Source: Cafeteria roenbergensis (lineage: Eukaryota; Sar; Bigyra; Bicosoecida; Cafeteriaceae). From it: 64,000 nt of DNA. Made by a program: the position numbers and the translations under genes. Below, one piece after another: positions 16,701 through 64,000 of this stretch. The stretch is taken from assembly GCA_008330645.1 (NCBI GenBank), contig VLTN01000011.1:124001-188000 (forward strand), read 5' to 3'. How positions within the stretch are numbered: the first letter of the stretch is position 1; the number at the start of each line of letters is the position of its first letter. The notes under the pieces were generated by a model. It was not told the DNA's origin. It saw only the letters and a program-made list of their open reading frames with translations, and did no database searches.

Positions 16701-17396
16701 AGGAGCGGGTCGGCGCACATGGTGCAGCGCCCCTCGGCCGTGCAGGCGGAGGCAGCGCGGGTCAATGAGCCAGCAGGGGGCGCAGCGGCCTGTGGCTGTG
16801 AGGGCGTAGCCCGCAGCGCAGGCCCTGCACCGCTCCGTGTCGCACTCGCTACAGTGCGCGTCCAGGCCAGGGCATCGTGCCAGCTCGCAGCCCGGACCCT
16901 CCCGGTGTGGCGCGCACTCGCACTCTCCAGTGTGGAAGTCGCAAGTGCCCGCTCCAGAGAAGGCAAGCGGGCACAGCACCCGCGGGAGGCACGGCGCCGT
17001 GGCGTTGTCCCTGAAGTGCGTTGGCCTGCAGCGCTCGCAGGCTTCGCCCTCGTAGCCCTCGAAGCAGAAGCAAGTGCCGGACCGGCGGTCGCAGAGGCCC
17101 GCTCGCTCCGACGTGCAGTGGTGCGCCCCGTCCGCCAGCCCGGGCGTCATGCCCGGGCAAACCTGCCTCGGAGCCACCCCCGCGAAGACGTTGGGCTACG
17201 CGGCGGTGAGCGGGCCGCCGGGGTTGACGCGAAATCGGCGAGGGTTGCTCACCTCACCGTAGCGGCCCACGAACCCGGGGTGGTACGGCTCGAAGATTGC
17301 GGGCGTCAGCAGCGCGCCCTCGTGCACCTCGCGGTACGCAGCCGCGAACGCGAGGCACGCGGCGGCGGCGGCCCAGCGGACACAGGCGGCAGCCAT
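13741..17396 (-). CDS. Secreted EGF / Cys-rich / Calx-beta / PA14 multidomain protein, with apparent frameshifts
   Basis: Exon 1 (17396-17253) encodes a signal peptide (MAAACVRWAAAAACLAFAAA) and RYGE, followed by a 57-nt intron. Exon 2 starts at 17195 with PNVFAGVAPRQVCPG. Next is a laminin/EGF-like Cys-rich stretch (CDRRSGTCFCFEGYEGEACE, CDFHTGECECAPHREGPGCE) and furin-like CxxC repeats. Around 15340-15700 is a Calx-beta domain (LTIHDDDAVEGNE, VATVVIIDDD). Around 13800-14050 is a PA14 domain (GGLAGEYWPNRAMLGPPVL, FTWGDASS, ARWSGRVPLPP), a carbohydrate-binding fold. Several NxT/NxS sites fit a secreted glycoprotein or adhesin. The three parts lie in three frames: one extra base near 16755 and one near 15010 would each explain a shift. 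These may be sequence errors or real lesions. The 3' end is undefined where it meets the PFKFB fragment; no membrane anchor is seen. Confidence 0.7.
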
Positions 17397-26062: not shown

Positions 26063-29000
26063 ATGTCGTTCCTGACAAGGCCCCTGAAGGGCATGGCCAT
26101 GGCGCAGGTCAAACCGCTCCTGGACAAGTTCATCAAAGGCGACAGCCTGGACGCAGACACGGTGCAGGTGGACACCACGGGGATCACCATCAATAACGTG
26201 GTGAGTGCCGAGTGTGCGCCAGCCTTGGGCCTGGGTACGCCCCTCAGCCATTCTGCCGTGCCCTCAGCATTGAGCCAAGCAGCTTTGGGGCAGCCGCAAT
26301 CGCCCCGTGTGGCCGGGCAGTCTGTCGCATCCTAGCCCGGCAGTGTTTGGAGTCCGTGGCGGCCACGCAGCGAAGCGAAAAGCACGCAGCCGTCGAGCGA
26401 GCTGGCTCGGCGCCGCAGACTGCTGCGTGCGAGCCTCGCGACCAGGAGGAAGGTGCCACTATCGGGCCATCGTGGGTGGCGGGGTGGGAGTATGCAGGCC
26501 CTCCATGACGGCAGAGGGGCAGGGGAGCAAGGTGACGGGGATCGTGCGGGCCAAGGCAATGCGACGGCGCTGATTGGCCGCACACGCTGGCGCCGCCGCC
26601 AGGCGGAGGCCCGGCAGCGTGCACGCGGCTCATTGTCCCCTTCGCCGCCCCTCGTCTCCTCCCGATCCCACCCGGGCGGCGTCGGGACAGCGACTGGGGG
26701 CCCGGCCATTTCGGCCTGGCAAGTGTGGCCGGCACACTTGAAACGAAGCGACTGCCCCAGAGTAAACCCCTTCGCGCCGGCGGCAACTGCGTTGTTCCGG
26801 AGCCCGCCCCCGCCCGGAGGGAGCTGCCCAGCGCGCGAGTATTCACCCCTGCTCCGTTCCCTGGGCGCGGCGCTTGTCCCGCAGGAGCTAAACATCGATT
26901 CGCTGCTCGAGGTCGCTGGGATGACTGCGGCGCTGCCTGTGCGAATCGAGGCCGCGGTCGTTCGGCGGCTCAAGATCCGCATCTCGTGGACGGAGTTGCT
27001 ATCTGCGCCCCTCAGCGTGGACTTGGACGGGGTCTACGTGGTGGCCACGCTGCGCACGGATGCCAGCTCCAAGGAGCAGCTTGTTGCGGCTCTCGCCGAG
27101 GCAGAGGCCGCGGTGTCTGCCCGGCTTGCCCAAGCGGCTGCCGCCCACCTCGCGGCTGCCACGGCGTCGGTCGGCCCTGCTGAGGTGGGGCAGGCTGGCA
27201 GGGCGCGTAGCATGACGACGTCGCTTTTGAACCGGCTTGCAGACGCGCTGCGGCTGTCGGTGCGGGACGTCCACATTCGCCTCGAGAGCCGCCCGCACCC
27301 GGCCCTACAGCACGGGGGTAGCGGCGCGGGAACCGCCGACGATTGGGCCGAGCCCCAGCTCCGCGCAGAGCGCGAGCGGGAAGAAAAGCGTCTCCGGCTG
27401 CTGCAAGACGCCTCCGCGCTGCGGCGCAAGGTGGTCCGGGCAGAGGGCAAGGCCCTCAGGCTGCGGCAGAGCAGAGCTGCGAGCAGCATCCGCCAGGCGT
27501 CCGTGGCGGGCCCGGCGGCCCCGGAGGACGACGGGGCGCCAACCGAGGCGGCCGTGGTGGAGGCCGAAGAGGAGGCAGCGCTGCTGCGACAGCGGCTCGC
27601 GGAGATGCTGCAGCAGCGGGAGCAGTCGGCGAGGGAGGCGGTGCTCCGGCTGCAGGCTCGCCGCTTCCAGAGCGGCAGGCGCCAGCGCACGCGTGGTGAC
27701 GACCACGTCGCCTACGCAGCGGGAGTGACGCTCGCGTCTCTCACAGTGTCCAGCATCACCCCAGACGGGGAGCTGTCCACCGGCGTGCGCGGCGACAAGG
27801 CCACCTCCTTCCTGCGCAAGCGCGTGCAGGTTGAGGGGCTGGGCGTGTATCTGGACAGCGGCTGCCGCCTCGCCGTCTACGGCAACGACCACGGGAGAGG
27901 TGCCACCGCGCTCGATGTCATCGACCTCATGCGCCGGCTGGCGCAGGATCGCGAGAGCGACGCAGACGGGGCCGCTCTGCCGCAGGGGCGCCGGCCGCTT
28001 CCCACGGGCTATGGCTCGTCTGGCGTGCCAACACCCGCGGAGGTGCAGGCGATGGTGGAGGCTGCGGGTGCCGGCGACGCGGCCCCGCTCAAGGCTCTGC
28101 TTGCTCGCCACGACAGGGAGAGCATAGCTGTGCGCCGTGAGGTGCTGGACCGCCTCGTGACGCCGGCGGAGGAGGCGCTGGCGGAGGCCTCGGTGGCCAC
28201 GCGGCGCGAAATGCGCAGGTGGCGCAGGCACTACCGCCGCAAGAGGGCGGCCATCCGGTCAGCTGACACGGCTCTGGCTCTTGCTGCAGTCGCGTCCATT
28301 CAGAAGAGCGGCGGCAGCGTTTGGGGCGGTGCGGGAAGCAGGACTGGGTTGGAGCTGAGCGACGCCGGCCCGGCGGGCGCGCTAGGGCATCGCGCGCCCC
28401 CCTGGGGGGGGCACGGGTCCACGCTGCCGCCCGCCTCAGTTATGAGTGGACGCACGTCGGATGCAACGCAGGGAGCGCCTGCCTACGACGGGTCTTCTCG
28501 CCGCACCCCGACGCGGAGGCAAACCGCGGCAGCGCTGGCGGAGCTCGGACGCGAGCTCACCGGCTGGGCGGGGGAGGTAGAGACCATGGCGGCGGAGGCT
28601 GGGGTGCTCAGCGGCGCCGCCAGTGCATCGGAGGGCCGCTCAGCGGCCGCGGCCGCGGCTGCGGCAGCGAGTGGAGCCGGCGCCTCGGCGGCCAGTGGTG
28701 TCCGCGCCTCGGAGCCGCCTGCCTCGGCGTCGCGGCTTGCGGCCACGCAGGGGGACCGCGCTGGCGCGCGCGGCCCGCTGACGTCGGAGCTGTCCGGGGG
28801 CGCGGGGTGCGGCACCGCAGCCTCCGCCGGCGTGTCCATCGACGCGCTCCTGCGCGCCGAAGCGGCCCTCGGGCAGCTCGAGGCAGAGGCGTCCGACGAC
28901 GGGGAGGGAGGCCTCCCCGCCGTTACGGCGCGGCGGCGCAGAGCCGGTCAGGGCACCCCCAGACGCCTCGACGGTCGGGGCAGAGCGGGCGGCGCGCATG

Positions 29001-41000: not shown

Positions 41001-44000
41001 CTTCCTGGCGGCTCGGCGCGCTCTCCGGCGGGCCGAAGTCGTCGTCGCAGCCGGCTGGAGGAGCAAGCGGGGAGGCGCGCGAAGCCAATGCCGAAGCCGA
41101 AGCCGGCATCCCGCACGCCCCCGCTCCGCTGGGCAGCGGCTGGCACTGGCCGACGCCGGAATGGAGCATGTTCGTGGACGCCGGCCTGGACCAGCCCACC
41201 CTGGTGGCAGGGTCGCTGCTGAACGACGTGCTCGACTACGTGGCCCCGCCCTGGGAGCTGAATCCCCCGCCCGTGAGGAGCACCAGGGCGGAGAAGCGCC
41301 TGGCCGCTCTGCGTCAGGCCGACGAGCAGGCCGGGGCGGAGGCCGCAGCCGCGCTGGCTGCCGCGCTTGCCGCCGCATCCGTGGCGCTCGGGCAGGTGCG
41401 CCGGCTGGTGGAGTCCGCGGCCAGCGAGGCAGCGGCGTCGGCGCCGAGGCACGCGTCAGCGGCGCTCGACCCCGGGGCGGCCGGAGCGAGGCCTGACCGG
41501 TGGACGTCCCGCCTGCCCATGGAGCCTGCGGGCTCCTTCAGCAGCGCGGTTGGCGGCGAGTGGAACCGGCCGCAAACGCCCACTCGGCAGCCCGGGGCCG
41601 ACGGCACGGACAGCGACACGGACGACGACAGCGACGAGGGCGACCGGGGGTCGATGGCCACGAGCATGTCCCGGCTCACTCCGGCCTCAAAGGGCAGCTA
41701 CTTCGCCACGGCCGCGGCCACCGTGGCCGCGGCCGACGGCGCCAGCGACGGGCAGGCTGCCTCCCAGCCGGTGCACGCGGGCGCGTGGCGCGTGCCTCGC
41801 TGGCTCGCCCGGGGGGCAGCGCGCCACGTGGCGCAGCGTTGCCTGCCTGCGCCTGGCGGCCTGCCGCAGCCCGGCAACGGCCTCACCTCGTCGACGCCGG
41901 TCACCAGCTGGCAGGCTCTGGCCATGGGCTTGCGGCCGGACCCGCTCCCGATCGGGGGCACGGGCATGCGCGTGGCTGCGACCATTTCGCGAGCGCACGT
42001 CTTCCTCCCGAGCGACGCCCGCTCGCCCGCGGCGCCCGCCCTTGGAGCGAGCCTCTCGCTCGGGTCCTGGGTCGAGATGAGCAGCGCCGGCGACATGGCA
42101 GTGACCGCGGAGGTGCACGGGCTTCGGGCGCGGAAGGTAACCGCGGAGTCAGAGGCGGCGCTGGCAGCCAAGCGTCGCGCTCGCGCCGTCATCCGCAAGG
42201 AGGCGGTGCAGCGCATGCGGGCTGCCCATGGCTACGCCAGGCAGTCGGTGAGAGGCTCGCCGCTCCCGGACATGGGACCTGCTGCGAGGAGCCCGACCTC
42301 CCGCCGCGGCCAGGCTGCCGCCGCTGCCGGAGCTGCCGCCACAGCATCACCGGCAGCGCCTGCCTCGCGTGCCGTGTCGCGCCTGGATGCCGGCGACGAC
42401 AGCGAGTCCGACAGCGAGGCTCGCGACGATGACGCTGGCTCGCCCGCCGAGCACCGCGGCCCGCCAGCCGGAAGAAGCAGCCCCGTCCGCTCCGCAGGCC
42501 ACGCATCCGACGACGTCGACGACTCGGATCGGGAGGGTGACGACGGCGACGTGATGCACGGATTCTCTGAGCCGCTTCCGCCGCCGCCGACGTCAGTCAC
42601 TCTTGCCAACCTTTTGCCGCAGCACTATGCGATGGGGGTGGCCACTCACGCTGGCGACTTCCTTCGGCCCACGTCTCTGGCGTTCGGCCTCACGATGCGA
42701 ACCGCCAGCGCAGTTCCTTGCGCCGGTGGCGCTTTCCGCATTGTCACGCCCTCGCAAACGACGGTTCGCGCCATCCTGGCAGAGCCGCTCACGCTGCGCC
42801 TCGGCTACGGCGACCTGGACATGCTGACCCGCGCCAGCGCTGGCCTTGCCGCGTCAGGCGGAAAGGGCTCCGACTTGAGCTCCGGCTGGCTGTCAGGAGC
42901 CCCTGCCGCGTGGGCCAAGGCAAGCCAGGACTTTGCCGAGGCCGCGGCGGCACCGGCAAACGCAGTGTGGCTCGGCCAGTGGGAGCCTACGAGGTTCTCG
43001 CCGCCCGGCCTGTCTGCCGATGAGATCGACGCGCTCTGCCGCTCGCCGCGCGACACCAAGATGGTGGTCGGCGCCCTGATCCGGCGCATCCGCGTGTCCG
43101 TCGTCAACGACATCGCCGGGCTCGACCAGCCCCTGGCCGCCACCACGGTCGACGATGTCGTTGCCTCCGTGGTGCAGTACCACTGGCGCGACCGCATGCT
43201 GGCGCGGGCCTCGCTGGCTCTGTCTGCGGACTACTACAACGGCCGCTCTGCCGTGTGGGAGCCGCTGCTGGAGCCGTGGACGGTGAGCGCCGTGGCAGTG
43301 AGCCCCCGGCCGCTGCGGCCCACAGTCGCCACCGGCTTCGCGGCGCGCGGCATCGCTCGCGCAGTCACCCTCGCGTCGCCTTCGGCGTCGGCAGCCATCA
43401 ACAGGGCGGCAGGGCGCGCAGAGCGGGAGCGCGCCGTGGGCGCAATGGTGTCGGAGGCGGCGCAGGCCGACGCCGCTCACAGCTCGGACGGGCGACTGCC
43501 GAGAACGGGGAGCGCCGGCATCGGAGGGCAGGGCTCCGCAGCCGCAGCGCTCGCGGTCACGGCAGCCGCTGACGAGGCCGAGGGCGCGGCAGAGGCCGCC
43601 GGCACGGGAACCTCCGGTCTCGCAGAGGGAGAGGACGGCCGAACCAGAGTGAGCGCCGGAGCTGCCCTCTTCGCGCTGGACGACGTGGTGGAGGCGGCGG
43701 CAGAGCGCTTCGCCCAGGCACAGTTCGACGAGATTCCGGAGCCGACGGGAATGGACGCCGCAAGGCTGCTGCTGACGGGCGCGGATGACGCCACGCACAT
43801 CGCTGCAGCGGCGCTGGCTGGGGGGGCGCCAGGCGGACCCGACGGAGCCCGGGACAACGGCGACGGCGCTGCTGCCTGGGCAACAACGTCCGTTGCGGCT
43901 CTGGCGGCGTGTGCCGCTGCTGCGTCTGCGGCCGGGGCTGGCGGCCACTCTTCCGTGCGAGCCGCGTCGGGTGCCAGCAGGCGCGCCGCTGTGGCCCCGG

Positions 44001-47000: not shown

Positions 47001-50000
47001 TGGGCGATTTCGAGTGCTGGCGTGGCGTGCTGGGAGAGCTGCTCCCGGTGATCAGCGCGGACCGGCCCCCGTCTCGGCCGCCCCTGCACCCGCTGGCCAC
47101 ATACCTTGTGAACAAGGCGCGGGTTCTCGCGCAGCGCGCTGGTGCCACGGCAATGGCGGAGGCCGTTGCCGAGGCCGCGGGCAGCCGTGCGAACACCGCC
47201 GGCGATGCCTCGGCCACTGGCGCGGCAGCACTCTCCGATTCCGCGTCTGCGCCATCAGGCTCCGCGGCGGGTGGCAGGGGCGCGTCGCGAAACCCCAGCG
47301 CAAGCAGGGGGCGCACCCGGGCCTTGGCTTCGCGCGCGCTGTCGCCGCTGCACACGTCGTCCCCGGCGTCCCGGAGCGGCAGCAGGGGCCGGCGCGGCGG
47401 CGGGGGCGGCGCCGGCGCCGGCGCCGCATCATTCAACAGTGGCGATGTGGCTCGCGGCGCCGCTGCGCTTGCTCCGTTCGCGGATGTGGCGGGGGCCCTG
47501 GAAAGTGCCTCGTGGGAGGAGATTCGGGCGACGCTTGTCGCGTTGGCGCCCGAGGCGGCTGCCGCCGGGTCGTCTGACTTGGGAGCCGATCTCACCCTGG
47601 GCCGCGAGGAGGTGTCCCGTGCCGCGTCGCTCTGGGTGCGACCGCTGATGCTGGCGTGTGGCGCGGCCTGGGCCGACCCTTGGGCGGCTGTGCAAGCCGC
47701 CGGCTCGCGACCGGGGCTCCCCGGCGTGGCGTCGTTGCCTCTGCGCGCGGGCGCAGCCAGGGACGCCGCCATGCCCCTCGTTGCCGAGGCAGTTCTGCCC
47801 GCAGCCATTGCGGCCACGGCCCGCAGCGCCATCGGCGTGGGAAGCGGGGCGCAAGACGGGCCGTGGGCAGAGCTTGCGTTCGCTCCGGCGCAGAATCGCG
47901 AGGCGCTTGCAGCCATCACAGGGACCCAGTGCCCCGTGGAGACGCTGCAAGGCGGGCGCTCAGTCAGCGCCTCCCTGGGCGACGCTGCACGCCGCCTCTT
48001 CCCGACCCCTCGCGCCGCCCTGCTTTGCTCGCCCCTCAGTGGCAGCGACTTTGCGCTTCCCGCCACTGCGGCGCTGGCCGGCCTGAACCCGCAGGCTGCG
48101 ACGACTCCGGCGTTCGACGCGGCCATCCGCGTGGCTGTGCTCGCTTCCGCTGCAAGGGGGGAGGGCGTCGCCCTGGCCACGGCCGCGCAAAACGTCGACT
48201 CGGCCGCTGCCGACGAGGCCGCTGCTGGCTCCGTCGGGGCGCTGTCGAAGCGCATCCGCACCATCAAGGACGTGCCGCTGCTGGGTCGCGCCATCGTGGC
48301 GGCAGCAACGGCGCAGGCGGACAGGCGCTGGAAGCACGCGTTCCCCGCGCTCTTCGGCCCGTCAGGCGGACCAGCAAGCCCGGGGTCGATGGCTGGCTCT
48401 GCCGCAGGGGCATCCGCTTCCGGCGACGCCGCTGGAAGTGGCATCCTCGTTGCCTCGCTCGCCCAGCGGATGCGGCCCCCGACAGGGGCTCGCTTCACGC
48501 AGCGGTCGGGCGCGTCACTTCTGGCCGCGGGGCTCGCCCACAGCGCGGCCGTGTCGCTGTGCAAAGTGGGCAGCGGCAGCGACGACGAGGACGACAGCGA
48601 CGCGCAGTGCTACGGCTTCGCGGACACTAGTGATGACGACGACTCGTCCCTGGACGACGAGCGCGACGCCGGCCGGCGCTGGTGGGAGGACTTTGAGGGC
48701 GTGCTCGACGCGGAGGAGCGGGGAGACGAGTCTGCGGCGAGCCGCCGCCGTTGGAGTGCGGCGGCCTCTGGCAGCATGGACCGCGCGGTGGCGTTCCGCC
48801 TACGTAGCGCTCACGCAGAGCTGACAGCGGTCACGTTCCTCGCCTCGTCGGACGCACTCGTGGTAGCCGCTGCGGCAGCGGCGTCACTGCCGCTCACCCG
48901 CCTCGCCAACCGCTCGAAGAACCGCGGCGCAATGCAGCGGACCCGAAGCACGGCCCTCGCTCGCTCGCAGTCCAGCAGGCACATCGCAGGCCCGCTGGCG
49001 GCGCCGACGCTTGGCGCCGTGCCAGCCTGGCTGCGCTCCGTCATGCCCCACGCCGGCAAGCGCACTGTGGCTGACTCGCCCGGCAACACGCCGCCGCCGT
49101 CGGACTTCCCCGCCCGTGCCCTGCTGCGGCTGCACCCGGGCTTGGAGGCGCGCGATGCTGCCAGCCGCGAGCAGGGCGGCTTCCTCAGCCGAGTGCGCCT
49201 CAACGCACGCCAGCTCGCCACCAGCATCGCCCGCATCGGCAGGGCGGGGCGGTCCGAGAGCATTGGCTCCGTGAGCGGGGCGGAGAACGACTCGCTCGAC
49301 GGCGGCCACGCCGCTGGCGCGGGCGGCGGCGGGCGGCGGGCGATGGAGGCGGCAGAGCTGCCGATCCGCAGCGGGCCGGCCTCGAGCCGCCGGGCCGGCC
49401 CCCTGCTGCTGGTGTCGCCGCTGCCTCCCATGTCCGTCACGCGTTCGTCAATCGCCTCTGCCAGGCGCCAGCCTGCGGAGTCGGGGTGGGCAGCAACGGG
49501 CGGGGGCAGCACCGCCTCGGCCTCACTGCGCCGCCCGTTCGTCTACTTGCTTCTGCACGACCTGATCGGCTCTGCCGTCGCGTCAGACCTGGCGTGGAGG
49601 CACGCACCTCAGAGGTCGCGCCGGCTTCTCGCGGCCGCAGCTGCGTCGTCGGGTGGGGTGGCTGCGCAGCCTCTGGCGTCGAGAATCTCGGAAACCGCCA
49701 TCGAAGAGGACGACGAGGACGAAGAGGAGGTGGGCCGTGGCCCCGGCAGTGGCACCGAGAGCGGATCCGGCTCCCGCAGCGAGCCGAGCCCGCCGGCGAG
49801 CGGCCGCAGGGTGGCGCTGCTTCAGCGCCTTGACGACGGCCACGACGTTGACGACGACGGCGACGACGAGGCCCACTCCCGGGCGCGCGCTGTGGACTCG
49901 ACCGCTGCTTCGCTGCCCCTCCCGGGCAGCGACGTCGGCAGCAGCAGCCAGGAGCCAACCACCGCCTCCGCCGCGAACCTCGAAATCGGCAGCAGAGCCC

Positions 50001-53000
50001 GGGCAGGGGAGTGGTCCGAGAGCAAGGCCAGCGCGGCCGCGCCTGCCCCCCTGGCCCCGGACCGTGCCTGGCACACGGTCACGCCGGTGCCTCCCCCCAT
50101 CTCCTCCATTCCCGCCAAGCGCAGCGCGCAGCCGGGCAAGTCGCACCCCGCCTCCTTTGCGTCCGTCGTGGATTCGGCGTGCCTGCCACCGTCCCCGCCG
50201 CCGTGCTCCCGCGTCTTCCGCATCCCCGTGGACACCTCAGGAACGTACTTCGTTCGAGGCGGCAACTCTCGCGCGACCAAGGCGCTGCTCCTTGCCGCGA
50301 CGTCCCGCCCCGAGCTGCTCGCCGACGCCACCGGCCTTGGCTTTGACGAGGGGCAGCCCCCCGGCCCCGAGGTCACGCCCAACATGCTGCGAGGGCTGCC
50401 CAAGTCCCTGGCAGCCGCGCAGGCTGCAGACATTCTGGTGCAGCACCGCGCAGGCGTGGGCGTGGTGGCCGACGTGGGCTACGTGGACTCGTTCAAGTCG
50501 CTGCGCGTTCGGTCCACGGTGCGCCTGCGGAACATGGTGGCCGTCCCTCTCATCGTGCAGTTCGAGTGGCCTGACGTCGACAGCCCCTGTATGGGGCGCA
50601 AGGCCATCCGCGTGTTCCGCCGCTTCCTTCCGCCCGGCGACAGCGTCTTCGCCCCGCTCGAGGCCGCGGCTGCGGGCTGGGTACGCGTGGTGCCCTACGC
50701 GCGGCCCCTGGCCGTGTCTACGCAGGGAGCCGGTGCGGCGGCAGCTGGCGTGATGCGCGAGGCCGCTGCCGGTGCAGCCGCTGCGGGCCAGTCCGCCGAC
50801 GCTGGAGTCCCGCAGACCCCTGCGTCGCTGGCGTCCCGCGTTGCCAGCATGGCTCTGCGCGTCTCGGAGATTCAGCGGTTTGCCCGCATGGCACGGTCCC
50901 GTGATGCCGCCGCAGCTTCGGCAGACGCCATGGCCAACGGGGGCATGCAGGCGGCAGCGGAGCGCAGTCTTCGGGCGCAGCGCAGTGGCAGGTCCGAGGC
51001 TCAGACGCTTCTGGACACGATCGACTTCCACCTCAACCAGTGCTGCCCCTCGGGCAGGCCCCCTGCCTGCGCCGGCGACGACGCGCTGACGTACCTCACG
51101 CCCTACTCCCTCTCCGCCCCAGTCCCGCTCGCCGCCCTGGACGGCACCGACCTGCTGCCGCCGGCCAAGCGCGCGGAGGACAGGCTGGGCGAGCAGCAAG
51201 ACGAGGCTCGCAGCAGCGATGACAGCAGCGACGAGTCCGACGGCGGCGCCCAAGGCGAAGCGGGCCCTCTGGGAGGCAAGCGTGCCCTTAAGGCCAGCAG
51301 GGCCGGGCGGAAGCGGGGCCAAGGCCCGGGCTGGGGCACCGGCGACGAGGAGCTGGCTCGCGCCCGTGCTGGGAGCGACGCCGCCGCGGGTGGGCTTGGG
51401 CTTGGGACCGGGACCGGGACCGGGACCGCGGGCGGCGCCAAGGGGCGGGCAGCGTCGGACAAGGACGCAGCTCGAGCCGCACGCGCGGTGGCGGCAGGCG
51501 GCGGGTCGGCAGTCCAGACCTGCACGCCGGTGCTCCGGTACTTCCACATCCAGGGGTCCGGGGCCAGTGGGTGGGCGGCCCGCCGCTCGGCAGATGCCGC
51601 CAGGCTGGGCTCGCTGGCGCTGCTGAGGTGCGACGCGGTGGAGACCAGCATCGGCGCCACCCCGTCGGGCATCGACCCGACCGCGGGCATCAACGCCAAG
51701 GTGGCGGGCGTCGCAACGCCCACGGCTGGCAGCGTCGCTGCTCGGGTGGCCGCCTCCGCGCAGCATCCCAACCTGACCGGCACGCCCTCGGGCGCCGACT
51801 CCCGTCGGTCGGCTGGCCGCATCGACAGCTTCGTCTGCTCGGTGCACGTGCGCCGGCCCATGCCCCCCGACGGGGCCATTCAAGAGGCCGCACGCGACCC
51901 GGCTGAGAGGCTGGAAGAGGCCTCGTGGCGCGCCAAGACCAACGTGCGGTTCACGCAGCGGCCTGAGGTCGCCTCCGACGCCGGCAGCGACGTGTTCACG
52001 ACGACCGTCACGCTGTCGGCCGCGCTGCGCGTCGAGAACCTCCTCCCCAGCCGCGTGGTGTTTGCGCTGGGCCTGGCGCACAGGCCTGCGCCGCTCGACG
52101 CGGCGCTTGCCCAGCGTGCCGTGGTTCGCCGCGGCGTGGGCTGCATCGCCCGGCTGCTTGTGGCGCCCTCGCTCGCAGGCACGCTCGGCCCGGGCGACCA
52201 GAAGGACGTGCTCTTCTTCCCGCCTTGGATGCTCGACGGCACCTCGCCCCCCGGCCCCATGGACTTGGCCCCTGGCCCGCCGAGGCAGCGCCCAGCGACA
52301 AGCCCTGGCCCGCGGCGCGTCGGCGAGGCGCTGGCCCAGGACGAGGCATCGTACGCCGACTACGGCCCAGCGACCAGGCGCGACGCCGACGCCGTCGGGC
52401 AGAGCGCCGGCGCCGCCGACGGCACGGCAGCAAGCATTTCCCAACGAGACGTTCGCCGCCTCGGATTCCGGGCGCTGCAGCGGCGCAGCGCCCCGCTCGT
52501 GTCGCTCCCCGTCTTGGCGCTGCACCTGGCCTTGCCGGGCATGCGCTCCTGCTACGCCAGAGCAGTCGTACCGCTGAAGAACTCCTCCAGGGCTGCGGCG
52601 GAAGCCGTGCGCCGCGCGACGCTCGGCTCGCGCTGGCTCTCGTCCAGAGAGGCCGCCAAGATCTCGGTTACAGGCGCTGCCGGGGCCACGTCGAGCGTGC
52701 ACGTGTGGCCGCTGGGCGCCATCCGGTCCGCCGCCGCAGCGGGCGAGCACCCGGCCGCTTGGGCGCTGGCCGCCGCCCGCATGCTGCCCAAGGCAGTTCG
52801 GACCCGGCTCTCGACGATCCAGCGCCTGGAGCGCGAGCTGCTCGAGGCGCAGTCAGCCGTCCTGGACGAGGAGTCGCGGCAGTGCGACATGAACAGGGTC
52901 ATGAGGCTGGCGCTCGGCACCGGGTCAGGCGGCTCGCGAGCGCGGGCTGCCACCGCCGGTGCCGTGATGGGGCCGGGGAGGCGACCTGCGTCTCGGGGGG

Positions 53001-56000
53001 GGCTGGTGCAGGGCCACGCCGGCCACACGTCGACGGCAGGCATGTCGCTCGGCATGCCGCAGCGCCTGACCGATTCCCTGTCGGCGAGCCGGGAGGGGAC
53101 GTCCTCCGCCGAGGACCGGGGAGCCGGAGGCGCTGGTCCGGAGGCGGGCCCCGTGAACCCGGACGCCGAAGGCAGGGCCCGGGGGCGGCTCGCGCCGGTG
53201 CGGGCCTCTGCGCTCTCGGCGGCGCAGTTCGGATCGGGCGACTCGTCGGACTCGCTCTCCTCCAACGACGACGACGACAACAGCGACTCTGGCTCCGACG
53301 ACGTCGGCCTCGGCTACCAGCGCGCGGCTCCGGACGCCCATGAGCAGGTGTGGGCTGTGGACAGCGCCGACGACGTTGGCCTGGCCAGCGGCGCAGTTGA
53401 GCCCATCACGGCCACGGGGCCAAGCGGAAGCGGCCCCGTCCGCTCCCTGCTCCGCCTGGCCGCGCTCGAGTCCGAGTCGCTGGCCCTGCAGGCGCTTGCC
53501 GGGGGGCTCGGGTCAAGCCGGGCGGGCGACCCGGACGACATCTTGGCCGCGGCAGAGGGCTTTGCAACGGGGCTGCGCCTTGCTCCGCTTCGCATCGAGG
53601 TGGAGCGGACGTGCGCCGCGCTGGCCAACGGCCTTGGCAGGCTTGACGGGGCAATGGCCACGGGCCTGGAGTCCCTGGCCAGCGAGGAGGGCCGGGCCAA
53701 GGACGTCGCCGCCCGCCTTGCCAGCATGGCCGCCCGCGCCTCGCATATCCGCCTTTCGGTGCCTCTGTGGGTCACCAACCGAAGCGGGGCGCCCGTGCAA
53801 GTTGCGCCGGCCGCCGACGGGCGCAAGGGCCAGGAGATGACCGTCCTGCAGCCCCCGCCGCTGGCTCGCATGCTTCGAGCGGAGCAGGCCCGGGGCGCGC
53901 CTGCGGTGGACCCGGCCCGCGGGGCCCCCGTTGCCCCCGGAGGGCCCGGGTGGCCGTGGCGCGACGACTCGCCCCCCGCCACCGAGGCCGCCTCCTCCGC
54001 GCGGCCCTCCATCGCGCCCGCTGCCAGCGCAGCGGGGTCTGCCTCCGGCGGCAGCGCCATCGCAGCCTCGGGCAGCAACGCGGGCAGGCAGAGCATTGCT
54101 GCCAAGTCGGGCGTGTACCGCCTCACCCAGGGCCAGGGCCTCCACGCCCAGAGCTCCGCGCGCCGGAAGCGGGCCCGGCTCGACCCCCGGGAGGCCGAAA
54201 TGGTCAGGCTGTGGGCGGAGCAGGGCACCCAGGCTCTGCTCGGCGGCGGTGGGCTCCTGCTTCGCGCGGAGCAGGCGGAGGGCGCTGGCCCTGGGCCCGA
54301 CGGCGCGTCGAGCCTCTCTGGCGTCGACGGAGCGGCGTTGCCATCGCCCGACTCGTCGGCCGACCTGCGCGGCCGCGATGAGCACGACGTTGCCACCGAA
54401 GCGGCCCGGCTGCTCCGCGGCTCCATGCTCGTCGCCTCGCACGCCAAGGCCCCGACGGAGAGGCTCAACACGGCGCTGGGCTTCCCTCGCCTGCCTGCCG
54501 CTGTGCCTGTCACGGCGGTGCCGCTGCTCCTCGTCGCCTTCCCGGGCCTCACGGAGTCGACCGTCCCGCCCTGGGCCACCGGCGCCCCGCCCGACGTGCT
54601 CTTGCTGCCGTACGCTCGCAAGCGGGCGCAAGCCCTCCGGGCGTTTGGCGCGCCTCCGTCCCCAGCCCACGGCGCGGGCGGGGCCGCGAGCCGACGCGCC
54701 TCGGGCGCAGCCAGCGGCGGCCGCGCGAGCCGGCCGGCCTCCACGGACGGGGCGGCCGCGCAAGAGGCGGAAACGGCGGCGGCCGCAGCGGCCGCAGCGG
54801 CTGCAGCGGCGGCGAGTCCTGTGACGGGATCCGACGCTCTGCGGGACGCCGCGCTGGCCGAGCGCCAGCGGCTGCAGGAGCGCGGAGTGACGGATGCCAG
54901 CGAGGCGCGCGCCGAGGCCGAGGCGGCCCACGCCGCGGAGGAGCGCAGCCGGGCCGCGGAGCGGGACAGGCCCAGGAGGGCTGTGTGCCTCCGCCTTCTC
55001 GGCGACGGCAACCCGTGGAGCGACCCGTTCAGCGTGGAGACGGGGGGAGACCGGTACGTGGTGGTCTCGGGCGCCGCGGGCGTTGGCCTCGAGGAGACGG
55101 TGCGGCGGGCCGGCGGCTCCGTCGTGGCGGACTGGTCGGCCGCGCTGCGAGGCGCGCGCGAGGCCGCTCTGTCGCTGGAGGAGCGCCCCTCCACCCCTGA
55201 CTGGGGCCGTCGAGTCATCGCCGGCTACGCAGGCGCCGGCGCAGGCGCAGGCGCCGTTACGGCTGGAGCGTCCCTGCATGCCAGCCGGCCAAGCATGGCC
55301 ACCTCCGCTGCGCTCTCCGCGGCCGTGGGGGTCTCGGGCACGTCCGGCCAGGGCACCAGGGCCGCTCTCGTCGCCGCGCGCGCCGTGGGCCGCTCCCAGG
55401 GCACCTCCTCCTCGCCTCGCAGCCCCGCAGGCGCGGCGCGCGACCCGGCAGAGCCCCGTCGGAGCAACTTCGGGTTCCCCTCCTCGTGGCGGGGGGCCGG
55501 CAGCCCCAGTGGCGCGCTTTCCCCGACAGGCTCCTTCGCGGTGCGCGGGCCCGCGGGCCAGCCTCTCATGCTGCGTTCCCGCCGCGTGGGCGTGCCCTGG
55601 GCCCTGGCCCTGCCGCCACCGGACCCCAGCGACCCGCTGCCGCCGCTGCCGCTGCAGCAAGGTCGCATGTTCGCCCTCACGCTCGTCTCCGCGACTCCGC
55701 TCCCGCTGCCCCGGGGCAGCTCCAGCTTCAACCGCAGGGCGGCCATGCGCGCCAGCGCTCGCTGCGAGTTCGACGTTGCTGTGCACGTGGACAACGCCAG
55801 GGGCACGTTTGCGGGCGTGACGCGCGTCGCCACGCTGCTGCCGCGCTGCATCGTGGTCTCGCGCCTGGGCCTGCCCGCTCGGGTGCGCCAGGCGTCCGAC
55901 GACGCCTCCCACGTGCCAACGCCTGCGGCCGTGGGCCTGCCCTCGCGCCGCCGCGTCAACGACTCTCGCGCCGAGGCAATCGTGTCCGCTGTTGTGTCGG

Positions 56001-59000
56001 CAGCCGGCGCGGAGGACACGGAGGCGATGCATTCGCTGAAGCAGGAGCTGACGGCGGCGCTCAACGGCGAGTCGGCGCCGCCGCTGGCGGAGGCCTCTGC
56101 CGCGGCCACGGCGAGGAGCTCCGCCGGAAGGATCTCGGCGCGGGACTCCGTGCTCGTGGGCCGGCCGGGTGGCGGGTACGACTCGGGCTCGGCTACCCCT
56201 GGGATCGGCGGGTGGACGGCTGCCGGGGTGGCGCCCTCCCGCAAGCAGGCCAAGGCGGGGGCCGCTGCGAGCCGAGGTGCGGCGCGCACCAGGGCTGCGC
56301 AGCAGCAGGCGTGGAACACCGCTGCCGCTGACCTCGCCAGCCCTTCGGCGCCGGCCGAGAGTGGTCTGGGATACGACCGCCGCCACCGCAAGCGCGCGGC
56401 TGCTCGCGCTGCTAAGCTCCGCGCAGCCGCGGCCCGGGAGGCTGCGGCCTCGGTCGGAGAGACGCTCGGCGCTGCAGCGACCACTCAGCGAGGTTCGCTG
56501 CCGCCGGTCGCCCCGATGCTGTGGGTGGTCTACGGGCCCAAGCCTCGCGCCGGGAGCGGCGTGCCCGACCGCGAGCTCTGCGTGAATGTGGACGGCGGAC
56601 AGGCCCTCACGGGCCCCGCCGTGCTCCTCCGCCAGGCCATGACCGCGCCTGTGCTGTGCTGGCAGGCTGTTCACGCTCAGCGCCGGGCGCGGCAGCGGCT
56701 CGTCTCCTCCGTGTGGTCTGTCTTTGCAGTGACCGGTGCCAGCTCCAAGCGGGCGAAGAATGAGCCCGCCACCGCCGCTGCTGCTGCTGCGGGCAGGGGG
56801 GGCGCGAGCCCCGGTCCCCCGTCACTGCACGCTGCGGCGCAGGCGAGGCAATCGTCCGGGTGGACGGCCGCGGACCGCCCCCGGCTGGACGGCGCGTCGT
56901 CGGCAGCGAGCACCTTCCGCGCCCGCCCGCGGCTTGCGTCTGCCATCCCGCGCCCAGCCAGCCTGACCAGCGCCCGCGCCCTGCTGGCCCTCGGAGTCGT
57001 GCCGGCAGACCCGGCTTTCTTCCCGACGTGGGATCGCTGGCGTCGAGAGGAGGAGAACGACGCCGCGGGAGTGGCGCCTGGCCCGCTCACGCTGGCGGAC
57101 TTTGTCTCCGAGGGCGACGCGCGTGCCCAGAGCGCGGCGCAGGCCGCTGCAGCGGCAGCACGGTCGTCCGCGCCGTCGCCTGAGACCGGCGAGCCCGGCG
57201 CTGCGCCGGGCGCTTCGGACGCTTCCGCCGCCGCCAGGGCGCTTCAGGAGGCCAGCGACGCTGCCGACCCTGCCCTGGCCTCCGCGTTCCGGCACGTGGC
57301 GGTTCCCACCGACGGCTGGACGCTGTGGGACCTCCCTGCCCTCGACCGAGGCGTGGCGATGGTGCGACGCCTTCAGATGGCCCTCGACCCCGCCACCTCG
57401 GCGCCCGTCGCCTCGCTCGCGGCTGCGGCGGCCAAGGCGCTGCCGCCCACCGTTCGGCGAGCGCTGGACGTCAACCCGTTTGCCCTGGCCCGCACGCTGA
57501 GCCCCGCCGCGTCCATGGAGGACGCGGCCGATGCGCTGCTCGGCGACGACGCCACGGCCGAAGACTTTGGCCGCGTGCTTGCCGCCGGCCCGACAGAGCC
57601 CGACACGGTGCTCCAGTCCGGCCAGCTGTGGCGCTGGACGCGCAGCATCGCCTTGGACGAGCTGAGGGAGGTCAGCGTGAAGCTGCGCCGGGAGCTGTGG
57701 GGACCGGCCCACGACGAGCTCAACATCGCGCCCATCGCCTCGCGCGGCGAGGCCCTGCCTGCGAGCAACGACAACGAGGCGGTGGAGGCCGCGACGCCTC
57801 GCGCCGGGGTCGGCCTCGCAAGCGCGATCGCTGAGCGGCGCGCGACTCTGCGGGCGGCGCTCCTCGCGCGCTGCCACCCCAGCGCCACAGCGTGGGTCAG
57901 AGTGCGGCTCACCCGGTCAGGCTCGACCACGCTGGTGTCGCTGCTCCCGTTCCCGGCTCTGCCCGAGTCCTTCTACCCCGGCGGGCGCCGCCCGCGCCTT
58001 CCCGAGACGTCGACCCGCATCGGGCACGCGTCCAGCGGGCTTGGCGATCCGGACGCCTCGGGCGACGAGGAGGGGCGCGACGACGGCGACGACGGCTCGA
58101 GCTCGGGCGAGCAGCCGGGCGCCTCGTCCTCCTCGGCCTCGGCGGCCAAGCCTGCCGATTCCGCTGCGGCCAACGCCCTGTCGGCCCGCGAGCGGCAGCG
58201 CACCACGCTGCCCTTCCACATCGTCAACCTGTGCTCCATGGACAGGCTCCTGGTCCGCCAGCGCGGCCTGGGGCCCGCTGCCGCTGAGCCAGTTGCGTGT
58301 GCCGGCGGGCTTCGCCCCGACGAGGGCGGGCTGGGGCACGCCGCCTACACCCTGGACACGCCGGACGAGAAGGCTCCCACGCTGCTCGTACACGCCCGCC
58401 CTGTGGGAGTGGGCGGGTTGATGTACTGGGGCGAGGGCAAGCTGGGCCAGGCCGTGGCAAGCGGCGACTGGTCCGGCGCTGCCAAGGTGCTCCTGCGGTG
58501 CGCGCTGGGTGGCGAGGAGGCCGGCGCTTCGGAGGACGAATGGGACGCCGACGAGACCAGCGAGGGCGGCGCGGTGGTCCGCGGGTCGGGGGAGTCGGCC
58601 CGCCCCGCAGGAACGGCCGAGCGCGGCGGGAGGGCCAACTGGCCAGTTTTCTGCGGGTCAGACGGAGCCGGCGAGGTCCCGCTCACCCGCATCGGCGCCC
58701 CGGTCGCGCCCATCGCGGTGGGCTCCATGCGCCAGAACGGCGCCTCCGGCACGGTGGGCTCGCGCAAGCTGTTCGTGACCGTTGGGACCGACGCCGCGAC
58801 GGGCCCAACCAAGGTGGTGACGGTGTCAGACCTCCCGTCCGACCCTGCCGCTCGCATCGCCGAAGTCAAGTCTCGCCTGGCTCTCTGCCAGGTGCACGTG
58901 CGGGTGGCGCTGCAGCTTCAGCGGGCGCTCGTGCGGCATCGCGTCAGGGCGCTGGCGCTGATCAACGAGCAGACCGTGTCAAAGTCGCGCGTGGGTGCCG

Positions 59001-62000
59001 CGGGTCTCGGCGCCGAGGGAATCGGCAGCGGCGGCGGCCGAGGCGGGGGCGACGGCGGCGGCGGGGCCACGGCCGGGCTGGAGGAGCAACTGCTGGTGCA
59101 GGTGGTCTCGGCTGTGGGCCTTCCCGCCTCTGACACCCGGCTGCTGAACCGAGCGGGGGGGCCGACGTCGTCGGACCCCTTCGTGGTCGTGGAGGTGGGC
59201 TCGCGCGTGGGAAGGCACCCTCTCGCCTCCCGCAAGTGCATGGCCACGCTGGACCCGGTGTGGGGCGAGTCGTTCCGGTTCCGCATCCGGCCCGGGCTGG
59301 TTCCCGCCGGACCCGGGTCCGCCGCCACAGCCGGGGCTGCCATGCGCCAGCAGGGTGCCGCCGGCATGGGCGATGACGATGCTGCCTTTGGGCTGGGCGG
59401 CGGAGGCGCCCACCTGGCGGGCGACGACGGCTTCAGCGGAGGCAGCGGGGACGACCCCGTGCTCACCCTCACCGTCTACGACTGGGACCAGGCCAACAGC
59501 AACGACGTCCTGGGCCAGGTGCGCGTGGCGCTGGGCCGCCTGCCGGTGGACGCCGTGGTCGACGGCTGGTGGCCGCTTCAGTACGCCACGGGAGCGGACC
59601 GCAAGCCTCGCGGCTCGATTCGCCTCCGCCTGCTCCGCACCGCCGCGCCTGCGCTCCGCACCGCCGAGCACGCCTTGCGCACGCTTCACCGCGCCGTGGC
59701 CGAGACGCGCCTCCTGCAGGCCCGCCTGCTCGAGCGCCTGGCCCGGGACCACCTCGCCTGCCCTCCACCGCGCCCCGTGAACCTCGCGCTGGCTCCGCCC
59801 CGCGTCCGCGCGGCAGTCAGCCTCGCGCTGCGGCGGCGCCTCGAGTCGCTCCTCAGCCGCGTCGGCCTTGCGGCGGCGGGGGCGGCCGAGAGCGACGCGG
59901 GGGGGCTCTGCCTGGCGCCCCCCGTGCTGCTCATCCCGTCCACGGACGCGGCAGCCGCGGAGGTTATTGGGAACAGCAGCACCGGCAACGGTGCCGGCGG
60001 GCGGGAAGCAACGCCGGGCTCGGCCCCTCCTGGGCAAGCCACCGACACCAGCGGCAGAGGCCAGCCCGTTGCGGCAAGCGCTGCTGACGCGTCTCCGGCG
60101 GCAGCCCCTGCGTCGGCCAGGGGGGCCTCCACCACAGCGGGCGCGGCGGCGTCCGAGCCCGGAGCCACGGCTTCCACGGCCGCCTCAGCGGGCGGCTTCG
60201 CGCCCGACGCTGGAGCAGAGACACCGACGGGCGCTGCGGAGGCCGCGGCGGGCGACGGGCCGGGCGACGGGGCGCCGAAGCGCGAAGGGCCCACCCAGCG
60301 CGCGGAGGCCGAAGCGCAGGCTGAGGAGAAGCGCCTGGCAGGCCGATGGCGCCCCGTGGGGCACGAGCTCTGCGTGGAGGTCGTGGAGGCCGAGGGAGTC
60401 GGCGCCGCGCTGCTGGAGGCGCTGGAGGAGGCCAGGCGCATCCGCTTGGACCCCGGCATGGGCCCGGCAGAGCGGCAGCGCACCGCCCTGCTCTGCGCCT
60501 CCCTCGAGCAGCAGCGGGTCTACGCAACGGTCACCTCCGGCACGGTGGTTCGCCGCACGCGCGTCTCGCGCGCGGCCGTCGAGCTGCCGTTCGTGGCGGG
60601 CCGGCGCGCCGGGCTTGGCCTCAGGCTCGTTCCCGCGGCCGAGACGCCAGAGGAGGTGGCGGCGCGGCTCGCAGACGGGGAGCGGGGGCTCGGCGATTCG
60701 CTGGAGGGCGCGCTCTGGGACAGCGGCGGCAACGAGCGGCGGCCCGCTGCGACCGGCGGGATCCAGTCAGCCGGCGCGGGATACGGCCGGATGGCCGAGG
60801 GAGCCGCCGCCTCCCCCGCTGCAGCGGCAGGCGCGCCCTCCGCCGTCCACGCCGTGAGGGCGGTCTGCCCGGTCCTGCCCGCCGGCGGCAGCTGGTCGCC
60901 GGAGGCGGCGGAGCGGCTTCGCTCTCAGCGCGTAGCTCGCGGGTGGCAGGCACCCTACGCGCTTCAAATCGCGCAGGTGGACGGCAGGGCCCTGTTCGAC
61001 GCGCTGCCCCCTGCGGCCGCGGGCCTCATCGGAGCGGTTTCGCCAGGGCTGCTCGTGACGCACATCGACGGAGCCTCGCTGCGCGGCAAGACGTTTGACG
61101 CGGCCATGGCGTCGCTCCGCGCTGCGCTGGCCACGGCCGCCGACTCGGCCGGCTCCGGCAGGGCGCGCTCGCAGCAGGACCCGCAGAGGCTCGTGCGGCT
61201 GCGGCTGGCGCCTGCTGCCGCCACCGGCCTCGCGGCTCTTCGCGACGTGACGTCGGCTGGCGCCACGCTCTCGGCAGCAGCGGGCATGGACCACGGCGCG
61301 AGGGGCGGCGATGTGCTCCACGCTGGCTCTGCCCGGGACTTGGTTGCCATCGGCCAGGAGGCGAGGTTCGGCGACCGCGTGCCGCCGCCCAGGCCGAGGC
61401 CGCTGCCCCCGCAGGCTGTCCGCCGCCGCCTGCATGCAGACGCGGGCGGGAACCCGCGCGCCCTCGCCTGGCTTGCGGACGGCGCGTACACCGCCTCGCC
61501 CGCAGCCCGCCGCACGCGGCGCGAGGCCACGGTCACCGTCGCGCTCTTTGCCCGCACGGCAGCGGCAGAGCCGCCGTCCGCTCAGCGGGCCACGCGCGCA
61601 CATGCCGGCCAGCCAACCGGGGCCAACGCTGCCACGCCTCGCGGCAGGCGCGCCGCTGCGGCAGCGGCGCTGGCGTCGAGCGCGGGGGCCCGCCTGGCCG
61701 CTGACGACTCAGACTCGGACGCCGGCCGCGTGGCCGGCCCCAGCCACGCGCATCACAGGCAGAGCTCCAGCACCGGCAGCGTGCCCTCCCAGGCCGCGGC
61801 CAACGGCAGCGTCGGCCCCTCGGAGCAGGCCCAGCTTGGCCACGAGCTCGTGGGCGCGGCGGCCACGCAGGCCGTGGGGGAGGACGCCGACGCCGGCGCC
61901 GGCATCTCCACAGGCCTCCTCTACTTCCTCGGCGACGAGGCCAGGCTGGGCCTCCGGCCCGTCGTCTCGGACGGGCGAGTAGAGGAGGACGACGTGGAGG

Positions 62001-64000
62001 TCGCCGCGCGCGTGGGCGTGCCCGCGCCGCCGCAGGGCAGGACCATCGACCGGTGGTTCGCCCTCGGCCCCGGCTCGGACCTGACCGGGCTCGGCAGCGG
62101 CGAGGGCGGGACCTTCGTGGCGCAGCCCCGCGTGCGGCTGCGCCTGCACTGGCGCCCGCTGTGGGCGGAGCGGCGCGTCGGAAGAGCCATGAGCGTCGAC
62201 GCGTCGCTCAGAGGCCTTGGCGTCTCGGTCGTTGACGCGTCCCCCCGCGAAGTGCTCTACCTCTCAGTCACCGGCCTGGGGGCATCGGTGAGCACGTACC
62301 ACGACGGGCGGAACGCGGTCGCCGCGTCGCTGGGCGACGTCCAGCTCGACTCGCAGGTGCCTTCGTCGCAGTACCCCGTGGTTCTCTCCCGCCTGGCCAA
62401 CACCAGCTCCAACGCGCTGGCAGCGGAGGCCTTCCTGGCGGGCGCGCCGCTCCTGGCGGCCGCAGGGGTGCCGGTGCCGCCCGGCCTGCTGGCCGCCGCG
62501 CTTGCCGGGCGACAGGTTACCACCGCCGAGGTGCTCGGCGCCGTGGGCGGCCAGGCTCCCTTCATCCTGTTCACCGCGCTGACGCGCGCAAGCAAGCACA
62601 TCGACCTCCACGTCGACGACGTCCAGCTGACGGTGCTGCCGCTGGCTCTGCGCCTCGACGACGGCCTCATCCGCGCGATCATCGACTTCGTGGCTGGCAT
62701 GGATCGCGAGGCTGCGGGCGCCGCCGCCCCGGTGGGGGATATTCCGAGCCTCTTGCGGGTCATCCGGCCCGCGCCGCGGCCCGCGCGGCTCCACACCCGC
62801 ATCCGCGCCCAGGCGCAGCGGGCCATGGAGGCCAAGGGCTGGGTGGGCGACTGGGCGACTGGGTTCCTCGCGCCGTGGGCAGCCAGGCAGGCGCAGGGGG
62901 AGGCGGCCCAGGACCGGGGCGCCGGTCTGATGCGGTCCGCCTCGCCGTGGGTGGTCCGACAAGCGGGCGATGCCGAGGCCGGGGCCGCAGACGCGACGCA
63001 GCCCCGCGCCGTGCCCGCGCCTCCCCCGCGCTCGGCCTCGTCTCTGGGCCGAGGGGGGGGCGCGTCCGCCCGAGCAGGCGGTGGTCCCCGCTCCCCGCCG
63101 CCCCGGCCAACGTCTCCGCCCGTGCGGCCGCAGGCGCCGCCGGGCCCCTCCCCGCGCGCCCCGGCGGCCGCCCTGAGCCCCGCAGCACGCAGCCTGCAGG
63201 CCGGCGCGGCGCGGGCTGACGGGTCGCCGTCCTCCACCGCAACCACGCCGCCGCTGCGGCTGCCACGGCCGGACCGGCTGCGCTCTGAGGGCAGCGCAGC
63301 CGCCCTCGCCAGCCTGCTCAACACCCCCGAGCGGTCCGTTGAGGGCCCCAGCAGTGAGGACGGGCCCGATGCCGGCCTGGGGCGCGACCAATGGGCGGAG
63401 GAGGACGAGGCGGAGGACGAGGCCGGTGACGAGGAGGAGGGCGAGGGCGCTGCGCACCCGCGGTTCGGCGCCGCTGTTCGGGAGCGCGACGCCGACGCCA
63501 CGGCAGTGGCCGACCGCCGCGATGCCGCTCTGAGCTCGGCTGAGCTGATGTCGGCATCCAGGTCGAGCTCCGTTGCGCTGGCTGCGTTCGGCCTGGCTGC
63601 CGCAAGGCCCATGGCTCCGACAGAGCTTGAGCGCAGTCAGTCCATCCTGCAACGGCGCGGGCAGGGGCAGACGCTGGCCAGGGAAGCCCTGGCCACGGCG
63701 CGGCGGCGGCGGCGCGCCGCGGGGGACCGGGCGGCCTGGAGCGCCCTCGTGTCGGCAGCAGCGGACGCGGTGCGCCGCGTGGCCCTGCCGACGCTCGGCC
63801 GCCTCCGCGCGTCTGGAGCGCTGTCGGCGCTGTCCGCGCTGGCCCTGTCCGCTGGCAACTCGGACACAAGCGCCATCGCGGCGACGGGCACGGAGGAGTC
63901 GCGGCTGTACTTCGAGCGGATGCTGCTCCGGCCGGTGTCGCTCGAGGTCTCGGTCCACATGGGGGCGGACCCCCACCTCATCTCCTCCCTACTTCCCGAC
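26063..64000 (+). CDS. VPS13: VPS13, giant bridge-like lipid-transfer protein (3' end outside window)
   Basis: Exon 1 is 26063-26200 (46 codons), a 684-nt intron follows, and exon 2 opens at 26885 and has no stop to 64000, so more than 12,418 residues are encoded. VPS13 proteins form long hydrophobic grooves that move phospholipids between organelle membranes. The chorein N-terminus reads GITINNVELNIDSLLEVA, then LKIRISWTELLSAPLSVDLDG. A charged coiled coil lies near residues 205-300. Repeating beta-groove segments recur (for example LSVKAELPRLILPRR at about 31860). The adaptor-binding region spans about residues 7825-10585 (FKSLRVRSTVRLRN, LSVPLWVTNRSGAPV, RVATLLPRCIVVSRLGLP, LPFHIVNLCSMDRLLVRQ). 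A C2 domain is at 10779-10965, a PDZ-like segment at 11387-11487, and the conserved C-terminal module starts near 11823 (REVLYLSVTGLG, LGDVQLDSQVPSSQYPVVLS). Ala/Gly/Ser and acidic inserts inflate the length. Confidence 0.92.
26201..26884 (+). other. Intron 1 of VPS13
   Basis: The donor is gtgagt at 26201 and the acceptor is tcccgcag ending at 26884; the phase is 0. Joining the two sides restores a continuous chorein motif (ITINNV then ELNIDSLLEV), so no exon is missing between them. Nothing else is recognised inside. Confidence 0.85.

Follow-up and report, generated by a model that had tools for sequence, protein, structure and literature searches.

An apparently complete 13,537-residue VPS13-type protein in Cafeteria roenbergensis, probably enlarged mainly by low-complexity loops

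In VPS13 proteins in general, lipids enter at the N-terminus from a donor membrane and are conducted by a groove, and the C-terminal domains bind the acceptor membrane. In this work, we analyzed a 64,000-nucleotide stretch of Cafeteria roenbergensis DNA (hereafter the window; bases 124001-188000 of contig C11, in a genome of 36,303,456 bases and 167 contigs), which has a GC content of 71.8% and contains most of a very large gene of this family. Giant VPS13 proteins form a size class that is already known. In the passages cited here, Levine (2022) lists VPS13 lengths of 7,192 residues for Chlamydomonas, 9,307 for Plasmodium, and 13,455 for Toxoplasma, suggests 38 groove units for the Toxoplasma protein, and raises the possibility that great length serves wide contacts in intracellular parasites (PMC7613979). 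For Toxoplasma, seven proteins of more than 10,000 residues are reported (PMC10993292). A different route to large size is described for PfVPS13L1 of Plasmodium (5,988 aa), in which flexible stretches surrounding 12 units account for most of a doubling of the usual size (PMC13036008). Our search pairing Cafeteria with VPS13 found no paper within the collection searched.

The gene in the window is predicted to encode 13,537 residues (1.37 MDa), which is slightly longer than the VPS13 lengths met in the cited passages, although we claim no record. We assign a probability of roughly 0.74 to the reading that it encodes a complete VPS13-type bridge-like lipid transfer protein, the extra length of which consists mainly of low-complexity loops, with a bridge that is not lengthened in proportion. 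The protein resembles that of Toxoplasma in family, in its protist host, and in nearly equal total length. However, an expansion of the groove to the 38-unit type is not indicated (up to about twofold is possible), and Cafeteria is probably free-living whereas Toxoplasma is an intracellular parasite. PfVPS13L1 is closer to the reading proposed here, with a normal 12-unit groove and much extra length in flexible stretches, but it has about twice the usual length compared with three times in the giant protein, and the cited part of the source describes a UBA domain and mentions no C2. The parts of the gene within the window are as follows.

26063..26200, plus strand: exon 1, 46 codons (MSFLTRPLKG...ITINNV), encoding the beginning of the chorein N-terminal domain, read from the sequence
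26201..26884, plus strand: intron, 684 nt, splice signals read from the sequence
26885..64000, plus strand: exon 2, window part, 12,372 codons, running on to 67357; open frame with continuous coding signal

The plus-strand frame has no stop from 26336 to the window end, and the initial annotation was correct in describing 12,372 sense codons from 26885 onward with no stop among them. Exon 2 ends at a TAG at 67358 (window coordinates), 3.4 kb past the window on the same contig, and has 13,491 codons; in genome-wide coordinates, the same frame spans 13,674 codons from stop to stop. The total bears out the earlier estimate of roughly three times the usual VPS13 size, and the one intron proposed earlier is the single intron that we detected (GT-AG, GTGAGT...CGCAG, phase 0), which holds a TAG at 26333-26335 in the frame of both exons. 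The exon junction is supported because, with exon 1 joined, the chorein match to ATG2_CAD scored 35.9 bits instead of 23.0, with the profile start moving from 52 to 14, and because the alignment of residues 8-98 with the N-terminus of a paralogue on contig C2 (E 4e-8 in a one-to-one comparison) crosses the junction. The VPS13_N score was not raised by exon 1 (34.9 to 34.4 bits). An open frame by chance is excluded, since composition predicts 189 in-frame stops in exon 2, where none was observed, and the other frames across this exon carry 65-200 stops (139 and 98 forward; 65, 93, and 200 reverse).

An in-frame codon model trained on two paralogues was the best model in 633 of 672 scanning windows; the remaining 39 favored another model by small margins, in 37 cases an antisense frame. 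None of the 100-codon windows along exon 2 scored below the noncoding model, for which the intron and the 3' flank supplied only 1.9 kb. Because this coding signal is continuous, hidden introns or fused genes are unlikely. That in-frame introns or noncoding inserts within exon 2 leave a much shorter mature protein would fit the long low-complexity inserts and a gene model built from DNA, but we consider it very improbable: at the stop rate expected from composition, noncoding sequence totaling more than about 214 codons should have produced a stop with 95% probability, and members of two other families of large proteins in this genome also lie mostly in long open frames. An assembly that joined two or more genes or unrelated loci in frame is extremely improbable. 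The C2 domain lies outside the basic VPS13 layout, and the assembly was taken as deposited. However, the N-terminal, middle, and C-terminal VPS13 landmarks occur in the correct order in one frame with a single VPS13_N match and a single VPS13_C match, the tested 1.5-kb mid-gene stretch (45000-46500) is single copy in the genome, and the likely source, the assembly of C. roenbergensis strain BVI (170 contigs, 36,327,047 bases, GC 70.1%), is described in the cited passage as PacBio-based with Illumina polishing (PMC6972860). Apart from itself, the stretch of the C-terminal 190 residues matches a paralogue on contig C5 (E 5e-6); the only other matches are two with E > 0.3. Thus, the gene is apparently single-copy and complete with two exons, and the sequence gave no sign of the separate genes or in-frame join that the initial annotation had named as the outcomes to exclude.

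We take the species of strain BVI to be the one now named Cafeteria burkhardae (Stramenopiles, Bicosoecida). The exon structure of the gene is unexceptional for its genome. The 23 dynein-heavy-chain matches listed fall in 19 distinct open frames, all of them 4,299-9,451 codons long. The HECT matches number 21 and occupy 19 distinct frames, of which 11 are longer than 4,000 codons, including two above 11,000 (12,725 and 11,064), with the shortest at 544. Two further VPS13-type genes lie in frames of 5,912 and 6,281 codons. These lengths run from stop to stop and are not proof of one exon per gene, and the survey of large frames covered these families. Very long open frames recur on contigs C1, C7, C17, C29, and others. 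As judged from these frames, the VPS13 gene is not alone in this genome in having a giant single exon. The exon treated as an oddity in the initial annotation is real yet has company, and the contrast drawn there with intron-rich neighbors holds in that one intron was detected but is weaker than stated, given a mean of 1.67-1.89 introns per gene reported in the cited passage for published strains of the likely species (PMC6972860).

The two paralogues share with the giant a VPS13_N match, a single long open frame, and much low complexity, but each has less than half its length. The contig C5 paralogue (284002-301737, minus strand) has its first exon outside the 5,912-codon frame and a VAB above the cut-off; a dysferlin-type match (4cah, E 2.3e-5) was observed in its VAB region, at about frame residues 4412-4491. 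The contig C2 paralogue, which is of VPS13/ATG2 type (1090187-1109029, plus strand), likely starts at an internal Met within the 6,281-codon frame, which gives a predicted length of about 6,037 residues; past its N-terminus, Pfam returned nothing at E <= 0.1.

Along the single frame of the giant gene, the order is chorein N-terminus, VPS13_M, sub-threshold VAB, C2, ATG2-C-like region, and VPS13_C. The landmarks and adjoining stretches are as follows.

26933..27289, plus strand: VPS13_N/chorein match, Pfam E 2.1e-7 in a 4,000-aa piece and 5.3e-9 in a short piece
43091..43288, plus strand: VPS13_M match near the profile end, E 1.1e-6, or 2.1e-8 in a short piece
45617..58366, plus strand: VAB-like region of about 4,250 residues, with boundaries and repeat-like stretches set by eye
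59081..59641, plus strand: C2 domain with a long internal insert, Pfam C2 E 2.6e-11, or 1.3e-14 in a short piece
62129..62734, plus strand: groove-like stretch after the VAB, assigned by eye and lacking a Pfam match
63899..64000, plus strand: start of a stretch aligning weakly with human VPS13C 3320-3431
64454-65011 (extended coordinates), plus strand: ATG2-C-like region beyond the window, by match to human VPS13C (9yqp)
64871-65014 (extended coordinates), plus strand: VPS13_C beyond the window, E 7.6e-7, 29.5 bits, above the 21-bit cut-off

The N-terminal and middle matches cover short parts of long profiles and fall under the Pfam whole-model cut-offs: VPS13_N covers only profile positions 52-167 of 1,317 and is below the 80-bit cut-off, and VPS13_M covers about positions 697-761 of 838 and is below the 50-bit cut-off. 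The ATG2-C-like region matches human VPS13C (PDB 9yqp) at E 1.3e-18 and VPS13A (PDB 9yg5) at 5.4e-16. By these sequence landmarks, the giant belongs to VPS13, as the initial annotation proposed, and is a divergent member in which the VAB and the groove are individually unproved. An ATG2-type bridge is hardly credible as an alternative. With exon 1 included, the N-terminal 200 residues match ATG2_CAD (2.5e-9) slightly better than VPS13_N (7.4e-9), but the chorein and ATG2-C regions are common to both families, whereas the VPS13_M match, a VPS13_C match over its cut-off, and the best C-terminal PDB matches (VPS13C and VPS13A) point to VPS13. The likeness to the human proteins thus lies in the ATG2-C-like region by sequence and in the chorein N-terminus by family; the deposited VPS13C chain has 3,777 residues, and no C2 is mentioned in the results for these two proteins.

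For the C2 domain, the best PDB match has E 0.002, and the acidic loop residues SDP and DWDQANSND align with those of protein kinase C gamma. Acidic loop residues of that kind characterize the calcium-binding type of C2. Because the domain carries them, calcium-dependent membrane docking through C2 is plausible. The plant proteins VPS13M1/2 are likewise described as VPS13s with inserted accessory domains, including C2 (PMC7613979, as far as cited), but in the giant the C2 follows the last VAB-like stretch (boundary by eye), unlike in those proteins.

Two further candidates were dropped. The PDZ-like stretch at 60950-61141 (plus strand), noted by eye, had no Pfam or NCBIfam match, and its three weak PDB matches included a PDZ chain at E 1.2; for the PH-like stretch at 46334-47146, neither Pfam nor NCBIfam gave a match, and no PH-type PDB chain was found. 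A C-terminal PDZ domain above the Pfam cut-off was observed at residues 3328-3399 of P0001, a VPS13-type protein of the downy mildew Hyaloperonospora brassicae, whereas the PDZ-like stretch of the giant passed no test. FFAT motifs for endoplasmic reticulum (ER) attachment occur in several VPS13s but not in all, and a scan of the giant with one scoring scheme gave no clear candidate. The VAB domain of VPS13s has six repeats, whereas the repeat-like stretches of the giant were picked out by eye, and a genome search with the VAB family listed only the contig C5 paralogue. In the protein database, no homologues at E <= 0.001 were found for the C2-to-post-VAB stretch (440 candidates scored) or for the 901-residue C-terminal groove/ATG2-C stretch (7,982 candidates scored), and a search with the contig C5 paralogue returned one protein, P0001, among 7,979 candidates; these searches reach only relatives that have exact short words in common, within set length limits.

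P0001 (3,422 aa) is a stramenopile protein with VPS13_N and VAB, and it differs from the giant in being compact, in its PDZ domain, and in having no VPS13_C match at E <= 0.1. We compared it with the giant and the contig C5 paralogue, using pre-VAB and VAB landmarks that were partly chosen by eye. The pre-VAB region has 6,290 aa in the giant, 3,587 aa in the contig C5 paralogue, and 2,108 aa in P0001, and the VAB-like region has 4,250, 1,174, and 649 residues, respectively. An entropy (low-complexity) mask covered 62% of the giant, 45% of the contig C5 paralogue, 44% of the contig C2 protein, and 15% of P0001. In the same order (giant, C5, P0001), the numbers of pre-VAB strand-like segments were 53, 50, and 64 at a threshold of 1.08; 34, 37, and 44 at 1.12; and 18, 21, and 21 at 1.16. 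The corresponding counts at these three thresholds were 38.5, 24.2, and 13.1 for shuffled giant sequences and 48.2, 35.8, and 25.0 for shuffled P0001, with 35.8 for shuffled C5 at 1.08. The alternating-pattern excess, measured for hydrophobic residues against local shuffles, ranged from -2.9 to 22.6 for the giant and from 7.2 to 22.4 for P0001, with the giant below P0001 under five of six definitions. Under a strict cut, hydrophobic-rich residues numbered 1,852, 1,698, and 1,520. Collinearity was assessed by chain alignment with block permutation: the real score between P0001 and the giant was reached by none of 60 permutations for the full proteins and by 2 of 100 for the pre-VAB region; for the pre-VAB region of the contig C5 paralogue, the number was 7 of 100.

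The main competing explanation is that the groove itself is far longer, with about 25-40 repeating units and a bridge of at least 50 nm, as suggested for Toxoplasma VPS13. The precedent there consists of 188 predicted strands, marked 'not shown' in the cited paper (PMC7613979), and the strong hydrophobics (VILFYWMC) in the pre-VAB region of the giant are twice those of the oomycete protein (1,362 vs 689, with 908 in the contig C5 paralogue). However, neither strand-like segments nor the alternating-pattern excess scales with length, although both measures are weak; most of the giant is low-complexity; and no internal repeats were found at E <= 0.01 with low complexity masked, so that internal duplication was not detected. 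We therefore regard a groove of that length as improbable. As for the initial annotation, which left a choice between a longer lipid bridge and long loops around a normal groove, the strand counts, the mask, and the alternating patterns speak for the loops and against a threefold longer bridge, as far as such crude measures can.

Several observations weigh against long loops around a normal-length groove. The strand predictor is crude and its signal modest, with the P0001 count at 1.16 (21) falling under that of its own shuffles (25.0). Under a loose cut, the hydrophobic-rich residues numbered 3,233 in the giant, 2,477 in the contig C5 paralogue, and 1,936 in P0001; this measure mostly tracks composition, as P0001 exceeded its shuffles at no cut and only the two stricter cuts put the giant above its own. 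Because the loose-cut counts and the VILFYWMC total exceed those of P0001, a groove of 1.5-2 times the normal length is possible. When the N-terminus and the VPS13_M end were left out of the pre-VAB comparison between P0001 and the giant, 21 of 100 permutations reached the real score, so the collinear signal stems mainly from the ends of the pre-VAB region; for the VAB and later parts, the number was also 21 of 100. The sole Pfam VAB match (55736-55906, 57 residues, E 0.1) is sub-threshold, and a groove-motif model built from seven stretches of P0001 and the contig C5 paralogue detected no copy above noise in the giant (best score -2.6, against up to 1.0 for shuffles). Single-sequence AlphaFold predictions were uninformative both for the initial 1,200 codons of exon 2 (pLDDT 41) and for the C2-PDZ piece (pLDDT 37), the latter with no strand even across the C2 domain. 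Groove motifs spotted by eye were dropped, as the motif model gave nothing above noise, and so was a two-state order/disorder composition model, which called 66% of the giant ordered vs 77% of the shuffled giant. On balance, a groove between one and two times the normal length, with loops making up most of the remaining length, is a fair reading of these sequences, and long loops around an approximately normal groove fit better than a threefold longer bridge.

The giant most likely works in the same way as other VPS13s: the chorein N-terminus would sit on the donor membrane, usually the ER, and a hydrophobic beta-groove would serve as the lipid conduit, while the VAB-like, C2, ATG2-C-like, and C-terminal regions would anchor the acceptor membrane. 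The surplus of about 9,000 residues would consist mainly of low-complexity loops between groove strands and between VAB repeats, together with the added C2. Such loops would make the protein larger and give it more binding surface, with no proportional gain in bridge length, and they may be expected to supply binding sites and bulk. What the computation shows is the gene structure, the ordered family landmarks, the C2 domain, and the low complexity; the groove length, the VAB repeats, this orientation, the lipid transport, and the calcium response are inferred. In an unlikely but possible variant, a moderately longer groove (at most about twice normal) would be combined with a VAB stretched six- to sevenfold relative to the oomycete VPS13, serving as a multi-domain docking platform beside the calcium-type C2, and the result would be a 1.4-MDa bridge for unusually wide or calcium-gated contacts. 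If this variant in a free-living protist is true, giant VPS13s did not arise from intracellular parasitism.

Elsewhere in the window, a 30-bp tandem array (15 copies at 98%) was found at 4265-4713 in a minus-strand open frame with GRGPPPSDGY repeats. Neighboring frames have matches to 6-phosphofructo-2-kinase (12072-13748, plus strand) and Calx-beta (14975-16789, minus strand). In a KDEL-receptor-like gene at 1298-2240, the Pfam match spans the frames 1298-1759 and 1890-2240, probably with a short intron between them. No RNA family in the window reached the threshold.

Based on these results, the locus offers an apparently complete gene with which to ask what determines lipid-bridge size: a VPS13 of 13.5 thousand residues in a most likely free-living flagellate, beside paralogues of less than half its size, in a genome that has some very long genes in single open frames. 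Should loops account for the extra length, a very long VPS13 in a protist would not have to imply wide membrane contacts. The gene also provides an argument, from a host that is probably free-living, against the idea that VPS13 length follows parasitism.

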